Origin: Treponema sp.
Lineage (GTDB): Bacteria; Spirochaetota; Spirochaetia; Treponematales; Breznakiellaceae
Direction: 5' to 3'
Length of the DNA stretch: 21,274 nucleotides
NCBI GenBank assembly: GCA_031288005.1
Contig: JAITSE010000058.1
Coordinates: 1-21,274, forward strand
The translations under genes were made by a program, and so were the position numbers. Below are positions 4,505 through 21,274 of this stretch, piece after piece. Each line of letters begins with the position of its first letter. The stretch's first letter is position 1. Under the pieces are notes generated by a model. The model had not been told where the DNA came from, made no database searches, and saw only the letters and a program-made list of their open reading frames with translations.

Positions 4505-5557
4505 TCACGGAGTGCTTCCATTCTGGGGCTTTGCCGTTTTCGCTTTGTTTGAATAGTGGATGGCCGTAAAGAAGACCGCGGCTGCAAGATAAGCGGATAC
4601 CAATAAAACCAGAAAGACAACAGGCCGCGATATGAAGCGGAGCGTAAAAAAAACAAAAATCAGTAAAACTATCTGCAGCGCCCACAGAGCGCAGTTAAGG
4701 CTCCAGGGATTAAGCCCCAGGTTTATCAATTTATGATGAATATGCATTTTGTCGGGGCTGTCTATGCGCCGCCCATCCCGCAGACGCCGCCAGACCGCGG
4801 CTAGCATATCCAGAATCGGGATAAGAAACAGCGCCGCGGCGCAGAAAACAGGAAGCCCCGAAAGCGAACTCTTTCCGTCAAGCAGGGGCAGCGCCGCCAG
4901 AGTAAAACCCAGAAACTGGCTTCCCCCGTCGCCCATAAATATTTTTGCCTTGGGAATTGGCAGGTTGAAAACCAGAAAGCCGCCGATGCACGCGGCAAGG
5001 CATACGCTTAAATCCGCGGCCGCGGCGGAAGAAAAAAACACGGCGTAACTTAGGGCAATAAGTGCGGAAAGCCCCCCGGCAAGACCATCCACGCCGTCAA
5101 TGAAATTCATCGCGTTGGCAAGGCCCACTATCCACAAAACCGAAAGAGGCGCTTTAAGCCAGCCGAAAGTATAAAAGCCGTCCCCAAAAAAAAGCAAATC
5201 CTGAAAAGTATAGCCTGGAATAACAACAAGAAGGGCCGCTATGATTTGGCTAAGCAGTTTGCTCCTGGGAGCCAGGGGGCGAAAATCGTCAATAACTCCG
5301 AAAACAAGGGTTATAAACATCCCGAAAAACGCCGGAATAAGCCGGGCGTCAAAATGAAGCTCCGCTCTGATGCGGAAAACGGCCAGGGCAGCAAGAATGA
5401 AAGCCATGGCGAAGCCCGGCCCGCCAAGGCGAGGCACATCGCCGGTATGTATTTTCCGATCATCGACTTTGTCATACCATGCTTTTCTGTGCGACAAGCG
5501 GCATATCAGATATACGGTTATGAATGAAAGCGCAAACGCGGCAGCTACAATAATCAT
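4505..5557 (-). CDS. wecA: Polyprenyl-phosphate sugar-1-phosphate transferase, WecA/TagO/MraY family
   Basis: This integral membrane enzyme would move a HexNAc-1-phosphate (usually GlcNAc-1-P) from a UDP-sugar to undecaprenyl phosphate, the first lipid-linked step of a surface glycan. The 350-residue protein is hydrophobic throughout with about ten membrane segments. Family motifs are VDDRKIHTGDVPRLGG (31-46), the Asp-Asp pair at 90-91 (metal binding), NAMNFIDGVDGLAGG (148-162), MGDGGS with Asp210, and the HIHH sugar-recognition loop at 272-275. That HxHH form fits WecA/TagO rather than MraY, which is normally encoded in the mur/fts cluster. A Shine-Dalgarno AGGGG lies just before the ATG. 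The natural acceptor pathway is not shown by the neighbours. It is the first gene of the three-gene minus-strand set. Confidence 0.88.
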   Translation of the reverse strand: MIIVAAAFALSFITVYLICRLSHRKAWYDKVDDRKIHTGDVPRLGGPGFAMAFILAALAVFRIRAELHFDARLIPAFFGMFITLVFGVIDDFRPLAPRSKLLSQIIAALLVVIPGYTFQDLLFFGDGFYTFGWLKAPLSVLWIVGLANAMNFIDGVDGLAGGLSALIALSYAVFFSSAAAADLSVCLAACIGGFLVFNLPIPKAKIFMGDGGSQFLGFTLAALPLLDGKSSLSGLPVFCAAALFLIPILDMLAAVWRRLRDGRRIDSPDKMHIHHKLINLGLNPWSLNCALWALQIVLLIFVFFTLRFISRPVVFLVLLVSAYLAAAVFFTAIHYSNKAKTAKPQNGSTP

Positions 5558-5818
5558 AATCCCCTTTATATCATCTGCATCCTGTAAAGCGGGACGCTTG
5601 GAATCAGCGCGCCCCGCCAGGGCCGCTCAGAGCAGTTTTGAAGGAATCGGAATTCAGCAAAACCGCCAAACAAATGGACTGCAAGAAACCCATAGGACCA
5701 AACATATCTTGTAACAATTTACGGAAAAGAGCGGAAAAAGGCAAGACACCGGCGGCCTGTGGGCGCCGTGCGGTGGATGCCGGGCAAAAGCCCGGTCTTG
5801 CCCGTTTGAAGAAGTCTT

Positions 5819-5841
5819 GCAATCCGGCTTCGCCGGATTGC
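5819..5841. repeat. Triloop hairpin, copy 1
   Basis: The left arm GCAATCCGGC, loop TTC and right arm GCCGGATTGC make a perfect 10-bp stem with a 3-nt loop. It is followed at once by TTAGGAGTTTTGCGG, the arm of the next element. Other copies lie at 5923, 8210, 8347, 8698, 9800, 10037 and (degenerate) 20892. Confidence 0.85.
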
Positions 5842-5844
5842 TTA

Positions 5845-5898
5845 GGAGTTTTGCGGATTGTTTTTGGGTGAAGGATTTTTCTAATTCCGCAAAACTCC
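5845..5898. repeat. GGAGTTTTGCGG inverted element (about 54 nt), copy A
   Basis: The arms GGAGTTTTGCGG (5845-5856) and CCGCAAAACTCC (5887-5898) form a perfect 12-bp inverted repeat around a 30-nt A/T-rich loop. The loop is almost identical to the reverse complement of the loop of the copy at 8155-8207, so the whole element, not just its arms, has been copied. Confidence 0.85.
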
Positions 5899-5922
5899 CC
5901 GGATTTATCCCGTAGGACCAGT

Positions 5923-5945
5923 GCAATCAGGCTCTGCCTGATTGC
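5923..5945. repeat. Triloop hairpin, copy 2
   Basis: The left arm GCAATCAGGC, loop TCT and right arm GCCTGATTGC give a perfect stem. It begins 5 bp past the stop codon of the minus-strand glycoside hydrolase gene. No T-run follows on that strand, so it is not a standard intrinsic terminator, but it could protect the mRNA 3' end. Confidence 0.8.
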
Positions 5946-5950
5946 AGGCC

Positions 5951-7375
5951 TTATAATTTATCGATAAGCATGGAGCACTTTCCCGAAGGTATCGGGAGGG
6001 TTTTTTTCTTTTTCCCCAGGATGTTTATTGTAAAATAATAGAGCTTCTCGCTTTCCATGTGGATTTCCCAGCCCCGGCCGCTCTTGTTGGACAGAATCGT
6101 AATCAGATTCTTCTTTAGAGCGAGGTTCTCCACTCCCATGATCTCCAGGTTGGGGATGATCCAGTCCACGGTCTTCCTGGGCAGGGAGATTAAGAGGCCC
6201 ACAACGTTCTCTATGGTCAGGCAGATTGTGGAGAGGGCATCGTAGGTGAGGTATTGAGGCCGGGGGAAACCGGGCTGCCCGGGCCACTGGGCGGGGCCTT
6301 CCCTAAGAGGAAGGTAGGCTTCCCAAAGATTTCCCTTGTGGTGGTTCCCGTCAGGGCTCATGGAATCCAGGATAAAATAGAGATGCCGGGTGGCGCATTC
6401 CCGGGCCATTTCCCAGCGCTGGTAGTGCTCAAGGCCCTTAATCACCATGAAAGTGAGGTGAGGGTACACGGAGCCGTGAAAGCCGCAGCCGTTCTCGTCA
6501 AAACCCGCTTCGCTTACAGCAATGGATGGGAAAGGATGGGGGGAGCCGAAAAGCCTGGGGTCCGAGAGTTTTTCAATGATCCGCTCCGCTTTGTCATCGT
6601 TGGGAATTTCCGCAAGAAGCGGCCAGTAGCCCGCCAGGGTTTTTACTTTGATCCGCCGCTCATTTCTATCCACATCATAGTAAAACCCGTCCTCGTTGTC
6701 CCACATCAGTGCGTTAATCCGGCTTTTCAGAGAAAAATACTGCTTTTTATACTGGAAGCCGGCCTCTTTGTCGTTCAAAATGTCCGTCAGGGCTGACATA
6801 TACAGCATATTCATGGCCATAACCGCGTTAAAGTCTATGGGGTAAGCCGCCGCCTCCCGGCATGAATTCGCCATTCCGGTGGCCGCAAGAGGCGCTTCGT
6901 ATAGGCCGTTGGGCCGCTTGGATACCGCGTCTACCCATTCCATATATCTGTGGAGGATGGGGATCACATCTTTGACCCGTTTTTTGTTCGCCGTTTTGTG
7001 ATACAAGTTGTATTCGGCCCAGGCAAAAAGGGGCAGACTCAATCCTTCCGGGTTGTCAGACTCCGCTTCGGCAAGGCCGGTGGCTATATTATAGGCGGAG
7101 CGCAGCGCGCCGTTCGGCTCCTGGCGCTCATAGAAAACATCCAGGGTCGGATGGGCCTGGTATATGCGGTTAGAATAAACCAGAAAAAACGAGGAAAATA
7201 TCGCGTCGTATTGGCGCAGGACCGGGCTGCCTGGATAGGAAAAGAATTTCCCCTCAATGCCGCCGTTTTCGCTGCCGCTGTTCCAGCAGTCCTGAATCCA
7301 AGCCCAGGTTTTGTCATAAATATCCACAAAATCCTGATCGTAAAAATGAATCTTGGGGAAATCACGCCGTATCAC
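5951..7375 (-). CDS. MGH1-like / GH63-trehalase-clan glycoside hydrolase-like protein
   Basis: This 474-residue protein has the helix-rich make-up of an (alpha/alpha)6 toroid and stretches typical of MGH1-like/GH63-type glucosidases: QYDAIFSSFF (55-64), RPNGLYEAPLAATGMANS (154-171), YPIDFNAVMAMNM (178-190), MWDNEDGFYYDVD (224-236) and GNLWEAYLP (348-356). No signal peptide is visible, so it is probably cytoplasmic. The start is GTG at 7375, chosen because AAGGAG lies 5 nt upstream. At 167-171 the protein has GMANS where related enzymes often have GMDN/GLDD with a proposed catalytic Asp; the replacement by Ala may mean altered or lost hydrolysis. The C-terminal 70 residues look like a small beta-rich add-on. 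A TATAAT-like box lies near 7455-7460 on the same strand. Exact family and substrate cannot be fixed by reading. Confidence 0.7.
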   Translation of the reverse strand: MIRRDFPKIHFYDQDFVDIYDKTWAWIQDCWNSGSENGGIEGKFFSYPGSPVLRQYDAIFSSFFLVYSNRIYQAHPTLDVFYERQEPNGALRSAYNIATGLAEAESDNPEGLSLPLFAWAEYNLYHKTANKKRVKDVIPILHRYMEWVDAVSKRPNGLYEAPLAATGMANSCREAAAYPIDFNAVMAMNMLYMSALTDILNDKEAGFQYKKQYFSLKSRINALMWDNEDGFYYDVDRNERRIKVKTLAGYWPLLAEIPNDDKAERIIEKLSDPRLFGSPHPFPSIAVSEAGFDENGCGFHGSVYPHLTFMVIKGLEHYQRWEMARECATRHLYFILDSMSPDGNHHKGNLWEAYLPLREGPAQWPGQPGFPRPQYLTYDALSTICLTIENVVGLLISLPRKTVDWIIPNLEIMGVENLALKKNLITILSNKSGRGWEIHMESEKLYYFTINILGKKKKTLPIPSGKCSMLIDKL

Positions 7376-7547
7376 GCCCGCTCCTTTATAATCTTGCTTG
7401 AATTACAGTATGCCATGGGAATCAATCCATGATCATTGCTACAAGATTTTTTTTATTATACAATGACAATCAGAATTTTTCCATTCTTTTTTTTATTTTT
7501 TTGCCGCGCTTGACAAGAGTTCCGGCGGCCCGTCCAAATACGGCGGC

Positions 7548-8056
7548 ATGATGAGACAGTCCGTGTATAAGTCCTATATTTCCATGGAAGCGCCGGTATT
7601 CACTGGAGCGTCCCTTTTGACCGGTCCCATGGAAGCGGATCAGTACATTCTGTCTCAGCTTCTGGAAGACGCGGTGAATTCAATGTGCGTCATCAGGCTT
7701 TATCCCGGCCTGCGCTCCGCCTATCTTATCGTCCTCATGGACATGGGGGTGAAAAACTTTTTTTTGGAACTTTACGACACGGGAACCGCGGGCTTCCGGG
7801 AAGGTCCCTATTCCCTCAAGCGGGTTTTTTCCCTGGGAAAACGCCGGGGAATCAGGTTTTACCGCACATCCCAGCAGGAGGGATTGTGGATTTTTCCGGC
7901 TATGATGCAACATCACGGGAATTGTGGCGGGAAGGAGCGGTTCCAATGGGCGCCTGTACCACGGAGACCGCTGTGGCCCGTTATCTTGCGGCGAGCGTCA
8001 TTGCCGACAGCCCGGAAGAGCTGGCCGCCCTCATGGAAAGCCCGGCCTTGAAATGA
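7548..8056 (+). pseudogene. Remnant of L-asparaginase C-terminal domain, frameshifted
   Basis: From 7548 one frame encodes residues matching the asparaginase C-terminal domain (IRLYPGLRSAYLIVLMDMGVKNFFLELYDTGT, then a TSQQEG segment). After about 7880 the family-like sequence continues in another frame: GGIVDFSGYD, then GAVPMGACTTETAVARYL and ADSPEELAALMES, ending at 8056. A single missing G in the G-run at 7880-7882 would restore one frame. The N-terminal half, with the nucleophile Thr and most catalytic residues, is absent, and no ribosome binding site precedes the first ATG. It is therefore a truncated, frameshifted pseudogene. The palindrome cluster begins directly after it. A sequencing slip could explain the frameshift but not the lost N-terminus. 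Confidence 0.75.
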
Positions 8057-8105
8057 TTCTCCCCTGGGCTGGTTCCAGGGGTCAGACCCCGGGAAGAAAT
8101 GCAAG

Positions 8106-8156
8106 CCTAAGCAAGCCGCTAAGCAAGCCGTAGGCTTGCTTAGCGGCTTGCTTAGG
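8106..8156. repeat. 51-nt perfect palindrome, 24-bp arms with 3-nt loop
   Basis: Positions 8106-8129 and 8133-8156 are exact reverse complements, with GTA between. Each arm itself repeats the word TAAGCAAGCC. The right arm runs directly into GGAGTTTTGCGG of the next element, sharing two bases with it. Confidence 0.92.
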
Positions 8157-8207
8157 AGTTTTGCGGGATAGAAAAATTTTTCACCCAAAAACAATCCGCA
8201 AAACTCC
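8155..8207. repeat. GGAGTTTTGCGG inverted element, copy B (opposite orientation to copy A)
   Basis: The arms at 8155-8166 and 8196-8207 are identical to those of the copy at 5845-5898. The 29-nt loop here is nearly the reverse complement of the loop there (shared core ACCCAAAAACAAT next to the right arm). It lies between the 51-nt palindrome and the hairpin at 8210-8232. Confidence 0.85.
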
Positions 8208-8209
8208 AA

Positions 8210-8232
8210 GCAAAGCGGCTCCGCCGGTTTGC
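8210..8232. repeat. Triloop hairpin, copy 3 (one arm mismatch)
   Basis: The left arm GCAAAGCGGC, loop TCC and right arm GCCGGTTTGC differ from perfect pairing at one position. It is identical to the copy at 8347-8369, and both are followed by ACGGCTCAGGT. Confidence 0.8.
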
Positions 8233-8346
8233 ACGGCTCAGGTATTTATCAGAACCGCTCTGAGACCCGTGAAACCAGCCCGAAGAACCATTGCGGGGAG
8301 TTTTGCGGCCCCAAGGGCCGCTCCGGTCCAACCCGCAAAACTTCAA

Positions 8347-8369
8347 GCAAAGCGGCTCCGCCGGTTTGC
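8347..8369. repeat. Triloop hairpin, copy 4 (one arm mismatch)
   Basis: Same 23 bases as 8210-8232, again preceded by a CCGCAAAACTTCAA box and followed by ACGGCTCAGGT. The shared flanks show that a unit larger than the hairpin was duplicated. Confidence 0.8.
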
Positions 8370-8371
8370 AC

Positions 8372-8460
8372 GGCTCAGGTTTAAGTGAGAGAGACTCTCA
8401 CTCGAGTGGGAGCGGCTCAGGTTTAAGTGAGAGTCTCTCCCACTCGAGTGGGAGCGGCTC
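8372..8460. repeat. Two tandem copies of a unit of about 42-45 bp with internal palindromes
   Basis: The stretch CGGCTCAGGTTTAAGTGAGAG occurs twice (from about 8372 and 8414), and each copy ends in CACTCGAGTGGGAG. Copy 1 contains GTGAGAG/CTCTCAC with loop AGA, and both contain the self-complementary CACTCGAGTG (extended to CCCACTCGAGTGGG in copy 2). Confidence 0.75.
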
Positions 8461-8683
8461 AGGAATACACGGGAATTAGTGGAACCCTACGGGTTCCTTG
8501 GGAGTTTTGCGGCCCCTGCAATCAGGCAAAGCTGAGACCGGAGGTCTCAAGATTGCTTAGGGGTTTTCAAGCGGTCCCCAAGGGCCGCTCTGGTCCAACC
8601 CGCAAAACTCCAAGCATTTTTCCCCGGGGAACAAATCCGGGGAGTTTTTTGACCTACTAAAAAAGCTAACATTCACAAAAGGC

Positions 8684-9786
8684 TCAAAAAACTCCAAGCA
8701 AACCGGCCCCGCCGGTTTGCACGGCCGCGCCGGTCCCGTCCTGGACGCTGCCTGAGACGGTGTACACGGCCTTTACCCCTCCGGCGGCTTTAATGGCTTC
8801 CTCAGTAAGTGAACTGGTTACCGTGTACGCGCCGGATGCATGGGCTGCGCCCGCGGCGTTGCCGATTGAAAAGAGGACGTCGTTATACTGGGGCGCCAGG
8901 GCCGCGGCGCCGGGGCCTTCTATCGCCACTCGCTGGCTCGCAAACTTGAGTACATAGCTGCCGCTCTCTTTTTTTGAGGCAAGAATCAGGGGCGAGAGTC
9001 TCGACAGGTTGAAGGTAACGGTGAAGGAGCTGTCTGAAATGATGCGGGGCAGGCCCTGCTTTGCGCCCGTCGTCGGGCTGATGCTAATGCTCCGGCTCAC
9101 GGGGTTCACGGTAAGTTCCGTTTCTTTGCCCGGCACGCCGCCGTTGGCGGAACCTGTATCAGCGTCAAGGCCGGCGGCGGTGAAGGTGAAGTCGTTTTTA
9201 TCGCCGATTGCGTTGTTCCCGCCGCTTGGGATGTCCCACTGGGGGGTGATGGACTTCATGGTTATGACAATCGTGTTCTTCACGCCTTTCTCAATGGTGT
9301 TGTTCAGGGCGTATCCCGCGGCCAGAAGAACGTCGCCGTATCCCGCAAGGAGCAGCACGTCATAGGTGACGCCGGGCATGACGCTGACGCTTATGAAGCT
9401 GTCGCCGGCTTTGGCTTCGGCTTTGTAGGATGGCTGGGTGTTTACGGGGTTTGTGTCTGGCGAGGGAGTTTGAGTCCGGAATAGGACTTCGTAGTTGTCA
9501 ACGTCGTTTTTTGTAAAGGAGGGGTTAAGCGATCGTGATACGGAAGAGCGTGAAATAGAGGTTACAGGGTCTGACCCCCCCCCCCCCCGGCGGGGAGCGG
9601 CACGGTTACGGCCACGAGGCCGTCCGCGTCCTGGAACAGAGCCGCGGGGTCTGCGCCTTGCGCCGCGCCGGGAGCGGAGGGGTAGGAGCAGCCTGTCAGG
9701 ATCATCGCAAGGGACCCGCCGAAGAGGATGCCGAAGGCCGCCAGTCCGGCGTAGAGAAGGTTTTTTTCATTTCTAGGAACATACAT
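8684..9786 (-). CDS. Predicted surface lipoprotein, reading frame broken at a 14-G tract (phase-variation candidate) and truncated 3'
   Basis: Translation from ATG 9786 (AGAGGAGAG a few nt upstream) gives a lipoprotein signal: basic N-terminus, hydrophobic core and lipobox ILTGC with Cys33. After residues VPLPAGGGGG the frame ends 3 codons later at 9562. If one G is added to the G tract (9575-9588 on the + strand), the frame instead continues through SDPVTSISRSS and a Ser/Thr/Ala-rich, beta-type ectodomain down to the stop at 8684, about 367 residues in all. Near the end, KAVYTVSGSVQDGTGAAV resembles the start of a carboxypeptidase-regulatory-like beta domain, but it stops after 12 more residues encoded by the palindrome at 8698-8720, so the original 3' end is probably lost. 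Function unknown; surface display is inferred from the signal. Confidence 0.7.
8698..8720. repeat. Triloop hairpin, copy 5, inside the lipoprotein 3' end
   Basis: The left arm GCAAACCGGC, loop CCC and right arm GCCGGTTTGC give a perfect 10-bp stem. It overlaps the last codons of the minus-strand lipoprotein gene and therefore encodes its final residues. Confidence 0.85.
9575..9588. repeat. Homopolymer tract C14 (+) / G14 (-)
   Basis: Fourteen consecutive C on the + strand lie within the lipoprotein reading frame (G14 in sense). The G count decides the frame: 12 or 15 G gives the full-length protein, while 13 or 14 gives early stops. The tract is the extended arm of a GGGTCTGACCC palindrome at about 9566-9578. 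Confidence 0.9.
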
Positions 9787-9799
9787 AGAACTCTCCTCT

Positions 9800-9822
9800 G
9801 CAATCAGGCGATGCCTGATTGC
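9800..9822. repeat. Triloop hairpin, copy 6, in the lipoprotein 5' leader
   Basis: The left arm GCAATCAGGC, loop GAT and right arm GCCTGATTGC form a perfect stem. In the minus-strand transcript it would end immediately before the AGAGGAGAG ribosome binding site of the lipoprotein, so it could affect translation. Confidence 0.85.
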
Positions 9823-9857
9823 GTTTGAATTCCCTCTCAAAAGCGGGGTTTATCTTA

Positions 9858-9886
9858 ACTCTAAATGATATTTCAGAATATTGCAA
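9858..9886 (-). promoter_or_regulatory. Possible promoter for the lipoprotein gene
   Basis: TTGCAA (9881-9886, read on the minus strand) and TAGAGT (9858-9863) are 17 bp apart. The -35 box is good and the -10 box is weak. The AT-rich 16-bp tandem array starts just upstream of the -35 box, where an UP element would lie. Confidence 0.3.
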
Positions 9887-9898
9887 ATTTTTTTTAAA

Positions 9899-9984
9899 GA
9901 AAAACTTGTTTTTCAAAAAACTTGTTTTTCAAAAAACTTGTTTTTCAAAAAACTTGTTTTTCAAAAAACTTGTTTTTCAAAAAT
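9899..9984. repeat. Tandem array of a 16-bp A/T-rich unit, five copies
   Basis: The word CTTGTTTTTC recurs at 9905, 9921, 9937, 9953 and 9969, exactly 16 bp apart; the unit is AAAAAACTTGTTTTTC. Each unit is nearly self-complementary (AAAAAC/GTTTTT). The period is not a multiple of three, and the frames it opens are not protein-like. Confidence 0.93.
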
Positions 9985-10036
9985 GTAAATATTTCCGGTT
10001 TTAGACCTGCATACTGAGAGATTAAATGAGAGCCGT

Positions 10037-10059
10037 GCAAACCGGCGGAGCCGGTTTGC
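10037..10059. repeat. Triloop hairpin, copy 7
   Basis: The left arm GCAAACCGGC, loop GGA and right arm GCCGGTTTGC are perfectly paired. It is identical in the arms to the copy at 8698-8720, with a different loop. Confidence 0.85.
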
Positions 10060-10102
10060 AAGGAACCATCGGTTCTACGAACCGCGCAGCGGTTCCAAGA
10101 GC

Positions 10103-10162
10103 CTGTCTCAAAACCATCAGAAACTTTGTTTCCGAGCGCTTTAGCGCTCGGTTTTGGGACAG
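10103..10162. repeat. Long stem CTGTCTCAAAACC / GGTTTTGGGACAG with an inner hairpin
   Basis: The outer 13-nt arms pair with a single T-G wobble, and the inner CGAGCGCT/AGCGCTCG makes a second perfect stem. A related structure with the same wobble position lies at 17649-17690. No T-run follows, so it is not a clear terminator. Confidence 0.7.
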
Positions 10163-10203
10163 TCTCAATTTAGTAGAATAAGTTCGTAAAATAAGCGTAT
10201 AGT

Positions 10204-10218
10204 GGACTTGTTCGCCGG
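10204..10218 (+). repeat. TTGTTC dispersed element, copy a
   Basis: GGACTTGTTCGCCGG followed by GGAAACAGCGGAAACATCG lies directly upstream of the aminotransferase gene. Related ends occur at 15044, 17248, 17363, 19491, 19581, 19623 and 21208. The frame through it could extend the aminotransferase N-terminus, but this is repeat sequence and not conserved protein. Confidence 0.6.
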
Positions 10219-10255
10219 AAACAGCGGAAACATCGATAAATCATGGAGAAATAAC

Positions 10256-11338
10256 ATGGCGTTTTCATTAAATTCTTATCCCATAATGTACCGGGCCCGG
10301 TATTCCCCCCAGGGCTGGACGGAAGAGTACCTCGAAAAACCGCATAAAACCCAGGAGGAAGAAGCCCGGCTTGATGAAAAAGAAGCCGCGGCCCTGGCGG
10401 AGTCCCGCAATTTCTTTGACGATATGCCTCTGATATCCTACACATCTCAATATGGCTTAGGCTGCTTTGAGGGTCTGAAGGCCCTGCCCCAAAAGAGTGG
10501 CGGCCTGGCGGTTTTCAGGCCGGAGCAGAATGCGGCCCGCTTTCACCGCTCCATGAAAGGGCTCTATATGCCGCCCTTCCCGGAGGAGCTTTTTATAAAA
10601 GCCGTGAAGGAAACGGTAAGGCGGAACGCGGCGCTGGGCTTCTCGATTCCCTATAACGCCGAATGGGAAAAAGACTCGTTTATAAACGCCTCTTCGATCT
10701 ATATCCGGCCCTTCTCCTACTCCGAAGGCGGCATCGGGGTGAATATTTCTAAAAACCCCTGGGTGATCATCGCCCTCTCCCCGGTGAGCGCCTATTTTTC
10801 CCAGGCTAGTTCCGGCGCGCTTGTTACAGGACGGATTCGAGCGGCGCCAAACGGCACGGGCTGGATCAAGGCCGCATCCAACTACGTAATCTCCGCCCTG
10901 GCCAAGCACGAGGCCGCGGAGGCGGGCTTCATGGAGTGCATCTTTCTTGACGCGGTGGAGCGGAAATACATCGAAGAAGGTTCGTCCTGCAATATTTTCT
11001 TTTATCTTAACTCAGGCGAGCTTGTTACCCCCGCTCTGGGGGACACGGTACTTCCAGGGATCACCCGCTCCAGCATCATAGAGCTGGCCCGGGACCGGGG
11101 CGTCCGGGTTTCGGAGAGAAAAATCGCCATAGACGAGGCCCTCACTGAGGCCCGGGAGTGTTTTGTCAGCGGCACCGCTGCCGGGGCCACGCCCATCGAT
11201 TCCCTCACATATCAGGGAAAAACGACGGTCTTCAACAAGGGCGAAGTTGGGGAACTCACCGCGGAGATCCGGGATGTCCTCAAGGGCATACAGTATGGAA
11301 TCCTTCCGGACACAAAAAACTGGCTTTCAGTCTGCTAA
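10256..11338 (+). CDS. ilvE: Branched-chain amino acid aminotransferase (class IV PLP fold)
   Basis: This enzyme interconverts Leu, Ile and Val with their 2-oxo acids using glutamate/2-oxoglutarate, in the cytoplasm. From ATG 10256 (GGAGA 7 nt upstream) the protein has 360 residues, typical of the longer, eukaryote-like BCAT group. Features are YTSQYGLGCFEGLKA (62-76), an SIYIRPFSY stretch (147-155), the PLP lysine Lys205 in GWIKAASNY, IEEGSSCNIFF (239-249) with the cofactor-binding Glu, GITRSSI (268-274) and SGTAAGATPI (305-314). An upstream in-frame ATG at 10202 would add 18 residues encoded by a dispersed repeat, so it was not chosen. purM begins 68 bp downstream. No other ilv or leu gene is present. 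Confidence 0.93.
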   Translation: MAFSLNSYPIMYRARYSPQGWTEEYLEKPHKTQEEEARLDEKEAAALAESRNFFDDMPLISYTSQYGLGCFEGLKALPQKSGGLAVFRPEQNAARFHRSMKGLYMPPFPEELFIKAVKETVRRNAALGFSIPYNAEWEKDSFINASSIYIRPFSYSEGGIGVNISKNPWVIIALSPVSAYFSQASSGALVTGRIRAAPNGTGWIKAASNYVISALAKHEAAEAGFMECIFLDAVERKYIEEGSSCNIFFYLNSGELVTPALGDTVLPGITRSSIIELARDRGVRVSERKIAIDEALTEARECFVSGTAAGATPIDSLTYQGKTTVFNKGEVGELTAEIRDVLKGIQYGILPDTKNWLSVC

Positions 11339-14824: not shown

Positions 14825-15043
14825 GGAAAAGGCCGGTGGCGCATATAAAAAACCCGCCACAAATTTCTAAATTAACGGCAGGATGAGTTTGTCATAATAT
14901 TTCCGCCGGATTATTGAATTTCAGGGAAAAGTACATTACCATTTTAAATAGGCAGCGGCTCCGGCCCTGATATTGGACTTGGCGAACAGCGGTTCGTAGA
15001 ACAGCGGTTCGTAGAACCGATGGTTCGACGATAACTTCAGTTA

Positions 15044-15061
15044 CCGGCGAACAACTCTATT
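15044..15061 (-). repeat. TTGTTC dispersed element, copy b
   Basis: On the minus strand this reads AATAGAGTTGTTCGCCGG, followed by a stretch that continues into the CGGTTC hairpins down to about 14976, where TTGGACTTGGCGAAC resembles a second end. Confidence 0.65.
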
Positions 15062-15294: not shown

Positions 15295-15425
15295 CGCTTA
15301 AAACCGGCAAAGTGCGGAGCATTTTGCAAGACTTGCAACCAACCGGGTTGCTGAATGAGTCGTTCAAATAATAGGAGCCTGAAGTTTGGAAGGCCCCTGA
15401 ATTTAAAACTGTAAGGAGAATAAAT

Positions 15426-16784
15426 ATGCTGATTGAAAAATTTTTTCACTTAAAAGAAAACGGAACTACCCCTGGGCGGGAATTTGCGGCGGGGCTTAGC
15501 ACCTTTTTGACTATGTCTTATATGCTGGCTGTTGTTCCAGGACTGCTGGCGGGAATCCCCGGCGGCCCTTCCCCTGAACCGGTCTATACCGCCACCATAC
15601 TGGCTGCGGCTGCCGGAACCCTGATAATGGCGTTCAGCTCAAACCTGCCGGTAGCGCTGGGACCCAATCTAGGTTTAAGCGCCCTCTTTGCGGACGTACT
15701 CCTCGGCGTCATAGGATTCAAACTGTCTTGGGCGGAAATGATGGGGGCCATGCTCATACAGGGCCTGCTCTTCGCTCTTATATCTATTCCGGCTATACGG
15801 AAAACCCTTGTGGACGCCATTCCCTTGAACCTGAAAAAAGCGGTAACCGTAGGCATAGGGCTGCAAATAGCTATGAAAGGTCTCGTCAGCTCAGGGGTAA
15901 TCATGTGGGATGATTCATTCAGCCAGATGGGAACAATTACCTCCCCCGACGCTCTGGTTACCATAGTCGGCCTCTTCATTACCATCGCCCTCTACTCCAA
16001 GCATATCCCCGGGGCCATTATCCTGGGCATCCTGGCAACCGCTGTTATCCGCATACCCTTTGGGGGATTCGATCTGACGCGAAACGCCTCGCCCCTAAGC
16101 ATCCCCGCGGCGCCCATGTTCACCGCGCCGGTCTTTTCATTCACCTGGGAATTCTTTATCGTGGCTTTTACTTTCCTGTTTGTCGATGTTTTTGAAACTC
16201 TTGGATCCTTCCTGGGGATAACGGCCCAGGCGGGGGCAATCAAAGATAAATCGGTGAAAGTCAACGAAGGAAGGGAAGAAATAGGAGATGTCCCCAAAAC
16301 CATGCCCGCCTTTTTGGCCGCGGCGGCAGGTACCATCGCGGCGGCTTTGCTGGGAACCGTCCCTGTATCCGTGCGGGTGGAAAGCGTCGCGGGATCAGGA
16401 ACAGGACGCGCCGCAGTCAGGGCAAAAGACGCGGGAGGACGGACCGGCTTGGCCGGACTCATCACAGGACTCCTCCTGCTTGCGGCCCTGTTCCTAAGAC
16501 CTTTGTTTACTATGTTCCCTAGTTCCGCGTTTGCGCCTGCCCTCGTTCTCGTGGGTTTCCTCCTGATGTGGAAAGTAACGGAAATTGAGTTCACCTATCC
16601 CACAGAAGCAATCCCGGCCTTCCTTACGATTATCATCATGCCCTTCACAAGCATAGCGGAAGGCATAATATACGGGGTCCTTTCGTTTGCGCTGATCAAA
16701 ATTATGACAGGCAAGGCCAAATATATCCCCCCCGCGACATGGATATTGTCGGCATTGTTCGTCCTGCGCTTCTTTATCCACTAG
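15426..16784 (+). CDS. Purine permease, NCS2 family, AzgA/PbuG-like (divergent)
   Basis: This 452-residue membrane protein with about 12-14 hydrophobic segments resembles adenine/guanine/hypoxanthine proton symporters of the AzgA branch. Signs are the N-terminal FFHLKENGTTPGREFAAGLSTFLTMSYM (AzgA proteins start similarly with F-L-x-E-x-x-T-x-x-x-E-x-x-A-G-x-x-T-F), LPVALGPNLGLSALFA (74-89; usual form PxALAPGMGLNAxFA), FLFVDVFETLGSFLGI (250-265), and GGRTGLAGL (337-345) before a late helix. The normally conserved TSTVTTYxES block reads TVPVSVRVES, and about a dozen residues are inserted before GGRTGL, so substrate range may differ. AAGGAG lies 8 nt before the ATG. Position after purMNH fits a purine salvage role; the rlpA-like gene follows after 16 bp. 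Confidence 0.85.
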   Translation: MLIEKFFHLKENGTTPGREFAAGLSTFLTMSYMLAVVPGLLAGIPGGPSPEPVYTATILAAAAGTLIMAFSSNLPVALGPNLGLSALFADVLLGVIGFKLSWAEMMGAMLIQGLLFALISIPAIRKTLVDAIPLNLKKAVTVGIGLQIAMKGLVSSGVIMWDDSFSQMGTITSPDALVTIVGLFITIALYSKHIPGAIILGILATAVIRIPFGGFDLTRNASPLSIPAAPMFTAPVFSFTWEFFIVAFTFLFVDVFETLGSFLGITAQAGAIKDKSVKVNEGREEIGDVPKTMPAFLAAAAGTIAAALLGTVPVSVRVESVAGSGTGRAAVRAKDAGGRTGLAGLITGLLLLAALFLRPLFTMFPSSAFAPALVLVGFLLMWKVTEIEFTYPTEAIPAFLTIIIMPFTSIAEGIIYGVLSFALIKIMTGKAKYIPPATWILSALFVLRFFIH

Positions 16785-16800
16785 GAAAGCGGGGCGCCTT

Positions 16801-17202
16801 ATGAATCGCGGATACGGATGTCGGGCTGCCGGCCTGCTTCTTCTTGTTCTGCCACTTTGGGGGCTTTATTCTCAGACCGACGATCAGAATTACACACGGA
16901 CTTTCAGGCAGCGAGGGACGGCTACCCGCACTATGGGGGCTAATGAACTGATGGGCGCTCATGCGGCTCTTCCTCTTGGGACTAGGGTACAGGTTACAAA
17001 TCTGCAAAATGACAGGCGCGTAACCGTTACTATCACGGGCCGGATAGCCGCCGCGGGGAACAGGATCATAGACCTTACCCAGGTGGCGGCAATTGCGCTT
17101 AGAATGGAGGATGCCGATTCTGTTCCCGTGTCCATCGAACTGGCCAGAGAGAAAGAAACGCGGGAGGCCGGGGCGGAACGGAAGCCGCGGATTCCCCGGT
17201 GA
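16801..17202 (+). CDS. Small exported RlpA-like double-psi beta-barrel protein
   Basis: The 133-residue product has a signal peptide (basic start, hydrophobic core at about 9-22). It then has one DPBB domain recognisable by RGTATRTMGANELMGAHAALPLGTRVQVTNLQNDRRVTVTITGR and NRIIDLTQVAAIALRM (written in part), which line up with RlpA motifs TAAHxTLPxGTxVxVTNL and GRxIDLSxAAAxxLGM. In lytic RlpA proteins the NDRGP motif carries a catalytic Asp; here that site reads TGRIA (79-83) and the upstream catalytic Glu region is missing, so this is likely a non-enzymatic, glycan-binding or structural version. No SPOR domain is present. The tail (114-133) is charged. The gene follows the permease by 16 bp and may be co-transcribed, with no obvious functional link. 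Confidence 0.78.
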   Translation: MNRGYGCRAAGLLLLVLPLWGLYSQTDDQNYTRTFRQRGTATRTMGANELMGAHAALPLGTRVQVTNLQNDRRVTVTITGRIAAAGNRIIDLTQVAAIALRMEDADSVPVSIELAREKETREAGAERKPRIPR

Positions 17203-17247: not shown

Positions 17248-17380
17248 ATAGACTTGTTCAGTAATCTGTTGATGCGAACCTTGGGTTCTGTAAACCCTAA
17301 ATTCAACAAGAACTGGAATTGCGGAAACGTTGGAAACGTAGTTTTCGATGTTTCCAACGTTTCCGATGAACAACTCTACT
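17248..17380. repeat. MITE-like inverted pair of TTGTTC elements
   Basis: The left end ATAGACTTGTTCAGTAA (17248-17264) and the right end, which on the minus strand reads AGTAGAGTTGTTCATCGG (17363-17380), face each other. Inside the right end GGAAACGTTGGAAAC (17323-17337) and GTTTCCAACGTTTCC (17350-17364) are exact reverse complements around a 12-nt loop. There is no transposase gene between them. Confidence 0.7.
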
Positions 17381-19490: not shown

Positions 19491-19508
19491 ATAGACTTGC
19501 TCAGCAAC
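19491..19508 (+). repeat. TTGTTC dispersed element, copy e (CTTGCTC variant)
   Basis: ATAGACTTGCTCAGCAAC lies about 22 bp upstream of the ATG of the small membrane protein gene, on the opposite strand, and is continued by AACCAGGTTGACGG. Confidence 0.55.
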
Positions 19509-19582
19509 CAGGTTGACGGAACTTAAAGTTTAATGAACAAATCTTACAGTTTCTCGCCCTGCGGGCTGCGAAACATACATTA

Positions 19583-19634
19583 GAGTTGTTCAATAACTGA
19601 AATTACAAAAACTTCATTTCCGATTGAACAACTC
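19583..19634. repeat. Inverted TTGTTC pair (12-bp perfect arms)
   Basis: GAGTTGTTCAAT (19583-19594) and ATTGAACAACTC (19623-19634) are exact reverse complements separated by 28 bp. With the copy at 19491 this makes three element ends within 150 bp. Confidence 0.75.
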
Positions 19635-19894
19635 GAATATTAAAATTTCAGAAGGTTCTGTCAAAACGAGAACCCCCACAGCCGCTTTCCCAAAATTAAA
19701 ATTGGGAAAAGCACCTGATAGCATAATAAAGTCACAATGGGAACAGGTTTATTTCAACAACCTATCTAATTTTTGTGGCCTCCCCATGTTTAAGCGCCTA
19801 CAGCAAAACAGGAAAAATTTTATGAGAGTACAATGATTTTGCCGCTGTATGTATGAATGAATAGTTGTGATAAAAATTCTTAGGGAATTGAAAA
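19635..19894. other. AT-rich stretch without a convincing gene
   Basis: A plus-strand frame of about 70 codons beginning at 19624 starts at a TTG inside the repeat arm, has no ribosome binding site and is of random-looking composition; I do not call it. Nothing else was seen here. Confidence 0.4.
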
Positions 19895-20891: not shown

Positions 20892-21020
20892 GCGATCAGG
20901 TAAAGCCTGATCGTATGGTTTTTTGGAACTTTGCTCCAAAACTGCTGGCTGCGGTCAAAGACCGCTCTTATTCTTAGATTATAGCCTGAAACCATCAGAC
21001 TGCAATCTGGAAGTCTCAGG
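20892..21020. repeat. Hairpin cluster including triloop hairpin copy 8
   Basis: It begins with the degenerate copy GCGATCAGGT / GCCTGATCGT around AAA (two G-T wobbles). Next come TTTTGGA/TCCAAAA, GCGGTC/GACCGC with loop AAA, and a CCTGA/TCAGG stem with AGACT/AGTCT inside. A protein-like minus-strand frame here is a by-product of these palindromes. Confidence 0.65.
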
Positions 21021-21207: not shown

Positions 21208-21229
21208 ATAGAGTTGTTCATCGGAAACG
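21208..21229 (+). repeat. TTGTTC dispersed element, copy h
   Basis: ATAGAGTTGTTC followed by ATCGGAAACG is identical over GAGTTGTTCATCGGAAACG to the right end of the inverted pair at 17363-17380 (other strand). GGAAAC/GTTTCC with loop GCA forms a small hairpin within it. Confidence 0.7.
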
Positions 21230-21274
21230 CAGTTTCCGCAACCCGAACCAGATCTGGTTCATTGGAACAAGGTT

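Follow-up and report, generated by a model that had tools for sequence, protein, structure and literature searches.

Short triloop palindromes, paired and arrayed, are dispersed in genomes of a Treponema-like family

A 21,274-nt stretch of Treponema sp. DNA (contig JAITSE010000058.1 of assembly GCA_031288005.1, hereafter the window) carries repeated copies of a 23-nt hairpin, named here HP1, in which two arms pair around a loop of three nucleotides. Together with related hairpins, HP1 probably represents a set of palindromic DNA modules, short, non-coding and non-autonomous, that are spread within the genomes of one Treponema-like family. The modules would have spread singly, in pairs, in mixed arrays and inside larger inverted-repeat elements. 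An enzyme supplied in trans may recognise the folded single strand, in which case pairing would matter and the loop could drift, and no host function would be required.

An HP1 copy was found at every one of the eight window positions (8/8) listed by a first-pass annotation of this DNA, which had described perfect or near-perfect 10-bp stems with 3-nt loops. Five of the eight stems are perfect (5819, 5923, 8698, 9800 and 10037), those at 8210 and 8347 form 9 of 10 pairs with a G.G mismatch at pair 6, and the copy at 20892, correctly called wobble-paired, has 8 Watson-Crick and 2 G-T pairs. The loop varies freely, as had been proposed: TTC, TCT, TCC (twice), CCC, GAT, GGA and AAA occur, with TCC and AAA missing from the earlier list. 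Of the perfect stems in the window that reach 10 bp, six enclose a 3-nt loop (five are HP1 copies, the other is a 24-bp stem at 8106-8156) and one a 12-nt loop. In 200 dinucleotide-matched random sequences such stems averaged 0.245 and never exceeded 2, with every loop size of 3-12 nt counted.

Copies in other genomes were tallied by sequence patterns, with reversed patterns as controls, and by pair counts (below, G-numbers denote genomes and L-numbers loci; the family set comprises 195 genomes, the family of G012). The HP1 pattern was matched in 3 of 21 searched relatives and in 11/195 family genomes, the reversed control in 1/195, which bears out, in relatives, the expectation that a genome scan would give more copies than a control; the maximum was 26 copies (G126). 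The sister module HP3 (GGAGTTTTGC-NNN-GCAAAACTCC, in G012 GGAGTTTTGCC-NNN-GGCAAAACTCC) occurs in 83/195 family genomes (control 3/195), with up to 73 copies per genome. In a sample of the phylum HP3 was matched in 8/392 genomes (control 1/392); these are G012, G037, G043, G115 and G144 of the family, and G283, G428 and G456 from outside it. As to a possible phage origin, a viral collection contained the HP1 pattern in one stretch. Draft or binned assemblies make up most of the genomes considered here, which could favour an artefact, but the excess of triloop stems over the random expectation, the reversed-pattern controls near zero and the numerous copies in G028, a single-contig 4.6-Mb genome, leave chance palindromes or assembly artefacts scarcely credible. 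A chance origin was rejected on the random sequences and the reversed-pattern controls.

The first-pass annotation treated the hairpins as one 23-nt family. The dispersed palindromes are there, but that description is incomplete, as several triloop modules, the 23-mer among them, are joined in arrays and larger repeats. The modules mostly measure 23-27 nt, and a pair of hairpins covers about 50 nt. In the HP3 pattern 5-11 central bases were unconstrained, so it offers a fair test of structure: among the loci examined, an exact 3-nt loop closed by complementary inner bases was present in 70 of the 81 unique HP3 copies, and the inner closing bases were diverse (C/G, CC/GG, GGGC/GCCC and others). 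Arrays of modules were found in G012, G126, G013, G016 and G116. In G126, HP1 lies beside GGTTCCGC-..., GGAGTTTTGGGC-... and HP3 hairpins. In G012 it belongs to a dispersed repeat of about 230 nt or more with inverted ends, where it lies beside GGAGTTTCCGC-NNN-GCGGAAACTCC, GGAGTTTTGCC-NNN-GGCAAAACTCC (HP3) and GCAATGTGCT-NNN-AGCACATTGC; in six copies of this repeat the stems are mostly retained and the loops vary. Three G012 copies compared by eye (L083, L086 and L088) differ in the outer stem, and their inverted ends are more conserved. HP3 also forms part of another dispersed repeat, in G028 (4,646,109 bases in one contig), with at least 66 matches (40 scored of 220 candidate places); its core (L200-L216, L220-L249) is about 214 nt long with inverted ends GGGGGAGCA/TGCTCCCCC. 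The HP3 module is absent from some copies, and in full copies it is flanked by imperfect 10-bp direct repeats (GMCTTGCCGC).

That the opposite arm changes to match, as the first-pass annotation held, was upheld by a count over 20 HP1 sequences (8 from the window and 12 from other records; 18 distinct). In these, 98.3% of cells are paired, compared with 90.2% in shuffles, and double-change cells number 12 against 2.8; the shuffles take no account of kinship among copies, and the 12 outside copies were found by patterns fixing most arm positions but leaving pair 5 unconstrained and pair 7 wholly or half so. Within the window, independent paired changes occur at pair 5 (T-A or A-T), pair 7 (C-G or A-T) and pair 3 (A-T to G-C, at 20892), and since double changes are confined to these pairs the window by itself provides few independent events. 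The copies at 8210 and 8347 are not independent of each other, because both sit in one duplicated segment of 52 nt (copies 96% identical). In the G028 repeat the long stems vary in sequence from copy to copy, and pairing is mostly kept: a fold of the core in 20 of 30 copies (the ends of the other 10 were not located by the end motifs) gave 1070 Watson-Crick, 68 G-U and 38 mismatched cells, and an alternative run with 25/30 copies gave 1158, 77 and 41, respectively.

Matched arms could also arise without any transposase if replication keeps the fold, that is, if template switching between the arms of quasi-palindromes re-makes perfect palindromes and lets the loops change freely. In its favour, double changes in G028 split into 503 transitions to 511 transversions (50% transitions), much like the unpaired sites (2103 and 2673, 44%), all counted pairwise and thus not as independent events. 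Pairs there change with no need of a G-U step, which argues against a pathway obliged to pass through G-U, and in HP1 a transversion is involved in 9 of 11 double-change cells at pairs 5 and 7. On the other hand, one-sided differences in G028 are frequent (596 to mismatch, 534 to G-U), mismatched copies occur (8210, 8347, G095, G105), and the surplus of G-U over mismatched cells is not predicted and argues against blind copying of arms. Neither G028 point is decisive, because fold programs prefer G-U columns, and the outcome of the transition/transversion test between selection on RNA and arm copying is mixed.

Modules also lie in frame in two protein genes. The leuS gene of G016 (TIGR00396, 788 bits, cut-off 548) holds, in gene orientation, the in-frame pair HP1-TTA-GCAGTTCCGC-NNN-GCGGAACTGC, in which both hairpins are perfect. 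Of 21 sequences read (23 were fetched, two of which did not fit the motif used), 8 have a linker of 12 aa at this place; in G016 it is 27 aa long, and in G022 it reaches 34 residues and contains triloop hairpins with shorter stems of 5-6 bp. In G116, whose leuS is 75% identical to that of G016 at the DNA level, a decayed HP1, changed at three arm positions and two loop positions, occupies the same place. For arm copying this pair of genes cuts both ways: the G016 hairpins are both perfect at such identity, yet none of the three arm changes in the orthologous HP1 of G116 is compensated. Arm copying also leaves the dispersal of the same modules unexplained. We regard it as an unlikely account of the hairpins. 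The second gene, aminotransferase-like (best NCBIfam match PseC, below its cut-off), carries GGAGTTTCGGC-TAC-GTCGAAACTCC-AA-GCAACCCGGC-AGA-GCCGGGTTGC in G013, at a site taken up in G016 by a short stretch rich in C. G013 exceeds G016 by 57 nt in this interval, in frame, and the extra DNA includes the hairpin pair, so that one occupied and one unoccupied orthologous site are at hand; the difference would be a gain rather than a loss.

Another explanation is a structured RNA, with transcribed hairpins acting in stability, processing or termination and selection on the RNA keeping the pairing. Copies are often intergenic (HP1 17/36 and HP3 39/74 outside naive open frames of at least 100 aa, where 23% of the DNA lies; 54/110 unique copies inside), the 5923 copy lies next to a stop codon, HP1 stands 1-2 nt 3' of tRNA-Arg in G105 and of tRNA-Glu in G115 (loci L137 and L138), and G-U cells exceed mismatches in G028, all of which would suit an RNA; the naive frame map was not used as proof of location, because many of the frames are probably spurious. 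An array in G126 (L148:1686-1761) gave a sub-threshold match to the small RNA family BjrC68 (28.6 bits, cut-off 39). Against an RNA, no Rfam match above cut-off was obtained either in the window or in 15 sources, which gave three matches, all sub-threshold, and on this ground a known RNA family was rejected as the identity of the hairpins. A terminator-like flag (stem plus run of T) fell on 1/7 copies in a scan of 5550-10260, and the total in that region was 11, compared with 7.6 (standard deviation 2.4) in shuffles; two more weak hits involve the 3' arm of the 5923 copy paired with another partner. Intrinsic terminators as a general feature were rejected on the 1/7 count. With copies in frame within leuS and the aminotransferase-like gene, and with the loop not conserved, a structured RNA appears distinctly unlikely. 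Elsewhere in the window, positions 1857-1972 gave a sub-threshold Rfam match to anti-hemB (26.7 bits, cut-off 49.5).

The first-pass annotation likened the hairpins to repetitive extragenic palindromes (REPs) moved by REP-associated tyrosine transposases (RAYTs). The analogy holds for the REP-like behaviour of the dispersed palindromes but not for the RAYT link. Y1 genes, detected as PF01797, were matched in 119/195 family genomes and showed no association with HP3: both are present in 53 genomes, the hairpin only in 30, Y1 only in 66 and neither in 46 (Fisher p 0.55; Spearman -0.03, with Y1 counts entered up to 21). Among 15 genomes that carry at least five HP3 copies, six gave no Y1 match; since drafts may miss genes, absence from a single genome is weak, and it is the missing association that counts. 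Neither HP1 nor HP3 occurs in any of 39 fetched Y1 loci (reaching at most about 1.5 kb on each side), and the tetranucleotides GTAG, CTAC, CGTC or GACG are nearly missing from the 6-nt flanks (HP1 0/68, HP3 1/162). Movement by a Y1 HUH transposase, RAYT or otherwise, would, however, agree with short dispersed palindromes forming sub-families with alternative paired bases, as in REPs (PMC3733652), and with the frequency of Y1 matches in the family. Some Y1 genes of the family, in L090 (G017) and L093 (G004), are flanked on both sides by short-loop hairpins of different sequence (ACCACCGCC-TAT-GGCGGTGGT and similar), so enzymes able to use such folds exist in the family, and two of the 39 Y1 loci (G013, G116) contain a looser GGAGTTT...AAACTCC hairpin. 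Taken together, a Y1 or RAYT mobilising enzyme is not supported, and we consider it very improbable. The 2.1-Mb draft genome G009 has 35 PF01797 matches and no HP1 or HP3 match.

Several observations weigh against the view that the hairpins are spreading palindromic modules. Most genomes have few or no copies, and 112/195 family genomes lack an HP3 match and 184/195 an HP1 match. Transposition was not seen in the sequences compared, nor was a transposase for the modules found. At the aminotransferase-like site of G013 no target-site duplication is evident, and gain and loss are indistinguishable from the G013/G016 pair; the direct repeats around the G028 module may be explained equally by deletion. 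The leuS linker is 36 aa long in G124, with a 5-bp stem at most; it thus varies even without long hairpins, and the site tolerates many inserts. The leuS insert is old, because G116 shares a decayed form of it, and perfect hairpins in G016 despite 75% gene identity are not what neutral selfish DNA would predict. It is conceivable, although we would not expect it, that a DNA-level process of the family inserts palindromes and matches their arms by copying the folded strand, without RAYT or RNA function; loops would drift, and perfect hairpins (even in an essential gene) as well as the variable stems of G028 and G012 would persist.

The window copies are listed in Table 1. Window HP1 is linked through TTA or AA to HP3-like arms (GGAGTTTTGCGG ... 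CCGCAAAACTCC), which escape the HP3 search pattern because about 24-87 nt lie between them. The inner stretch of 5845-5898 resembles the reverse complement of that of 8155-8207. A hairpin TGAGACC-GGA-GGTCTCA at 8533-8549 splits the broken HP1, so that one palindrome is nested in another. Read on the minus strand, the 9800 copy is closely followed by AGAGGAGAG and the start codon (ATG) of a lipoprotein-like open frame. On that strand the 10037 copy shares its loop (TCC) and outer flank (TTGCACGGCTC) with the copies at 8210 and 8347, which makes it an inverted member of their subtype.

Table 1. Hairpins and paired arms in the window
Feature	Position	Context
HP1, GCAATCCGGC-TTC-GCCGGATTGC, perfect	5819..5841	then TTA and an HP3-like pair of arms
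HP3-like arms, GGAGTTTTGCGG ... CCGCAAAACTCC	5845..5898	30 nt enclosed
HP1, GCAATCAGGC-TCT-GCCTGATTGC, perfect	5923..5945	3' of the glycoside hydrolase gene (5951-7375, minus), 5 nt from its stop codon
24-bp perfect stem, triloop GTA	8106..8156	two repeats of CTAAGCAAGCC; overlaps start of HP3-like arm
HP3-like arms, GGAGTTTTGCGG ... CCGCAAAACTCC	8155..8207	then AA, then HP1 at 8210
HP1, GCAAAGCGGC-TCC-GCCGGTTTGC, one G.G mismatch	8210..8232	
HP3-like arms, GGAGTTTTGCGG ... CCGCAAAACTTC	8297..8344	then AA, then HP1 at 8347
HP1, same sequence as 8210	8347..8369	duplicated segment
Extra triloop hairpin, GGAACCC-TAC-GGGTTCC	8481..8497	
HP3-like arms	8501..8611	enclose the broken HP1 and other hairpins
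Ninth, broken HP1: 5' arm GCAATCAGGC, 3' remnant GATTGC	8518..8556	
HP1, GCAAACCGGC-CCC-GCCGGTTTGC, perfect	8698..8720	codons near the C-terminus of open frame 8684-9379, minus
HP1, GCAATCAGGC-GAT-GCCTGATTGC, perfect	9800..9822	
HP1, GCAAACCGGC-GGA-GCCGGTTTGC, perfect	10037..10059	upstream of the aminotransferase gene (start near 10202-10256)
HP1, GCGATCAGGT-AAA-GCCTGATCGT	20892..20914	two G-T pairs, one A-T to G-C double change

Among the neighbouring genes, the glycoside hydrolase (5951-7375) has its best relatives in Treponema and Spirochaetaceae draft genomes (at most 88% identical), and the aminotransferase (10256-11338) points the same way, with Treponema primitia ZAS-2 at 75%. These relatives suggest that the DNA is from a Treponema of the termite gut, probably one of the Breznakiellaceae. 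A homologue search with the open frame 8684-9379, which contains the HP1 copy at 8698, returned only itself. The lipoprotein-like gene at 8684-9840 is apparently split between two reading frames close to a stretch of 14 C (9575-9588), and a search of 5.8 billion proteins yielded no relative of its downstream frame. A 16-bp tandem repeat, AAAACTTGTTTTTCAA, of about five copies (9899-9983) lies upstream of the lipoprotein-like open frame. No orthologous empty sites for the window copies were found by comparison with L001, L002 and the other loci examined, because 5558-5950 is a break of synteny and 8057-8700 and 9823-10200 are unmatched at E 1e-3. At that break, the hydrolase gene in L001/L002 is followed by relatives of window 15367-17168. 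Between 7503 and 7583, about 2 kb of L001 and L002 are missing from the window, which suggests a deletion within a palindrome-rich region. A second inverted-repeat family, with ends like TAGASTTGTTC ... GAACAACTCTA, lies at 15042-15060, 17249-17378, 19498-19640 and 21209-21274, and the TAGASTTGTTC motif is also present in 7/80 other loci scanned.

Comparison with known systems shows likeness to several of them. REPs are dispersed palindromes of 20-40 bp with sub-families that differ in paired stem bases, and with dimers and clusters (PMC3733652 and PMC3116915). The modules described here resemble REPs, bacterial interspersed mosaic elements (BIMEs) and REPINs in being short and dispersed, with many copies in some genomes. 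However, the REP definition in PMC3733652 includes an unpaired GTAG or CGTC tetranucleotide at one end, whereas the modules have no GTAG tag and no RAYT association, mostly have 3-nt loops and 10-12-bp stems, and adjoin several different modules. CGTC-tagged repeats, which according to that paper occur in five phyla including Spirochaetes and are said to be without a dedicated transposase, show that the phylum was already known to contain short palindromes of some kind; they have the CGTC tag, 8-9-bp stems and 4-5-nt loops, none of which applies to the modules.

Rickettsia palindromic elements occur between genes and fused in frame in conserved protein genes, where the protein tolerates them (PMC2229807), and in this they are like the modules in leuS (G016) and the aminotransferase-like gene (G013). 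Unlike the modules, which are paired or arrayed, they are 105-146 bp long with 12-bp terminal inverted repeats, and they belong to a different phylum. The larger G012 and G028 repeats have inverted ends, as have repeats of the type of miniature inverted-repeat transposable elements (NEMIS/Correia, ERIC, RUP), whereas hairpins that stand alone show no terminal repeats other than their arms, and a search for target duplications gave no clear case. Integron attC sites, also considered, are marked by conserved core boxes and lie in cassette arrays that have an integrase. By description, the modules are also like the hairpin elements in mitochondria of sponges, Volvox and fungi, which are short and invasive; unlike the modules, these reside in organelle genomes. 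Searches of open-access papers brought up no description of such repeats from termite-gut Treponema or related ones, and PMC2267715 mentions neither Treponema nor spirochaetes. By the features compared, the best reading is that the modules may work like REPs or Rickettsia palindromic elements and belong to neither.

If this reading is right, the family would be a bacterial group with REP-like palindromes minus the REP tag and the RAYT link, built of interchangeable triloop modules, some of which would be tolerated in frame within an essential gene. It would provide a natural system for finding which non-RAYT enzyme can spread such palindromes, and for deciding whether selection or the copying of a folded strand accounts for the matched arms. 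Both questions can be tested at the leuS and aminotransferase sites and on the numerous copies in G028.

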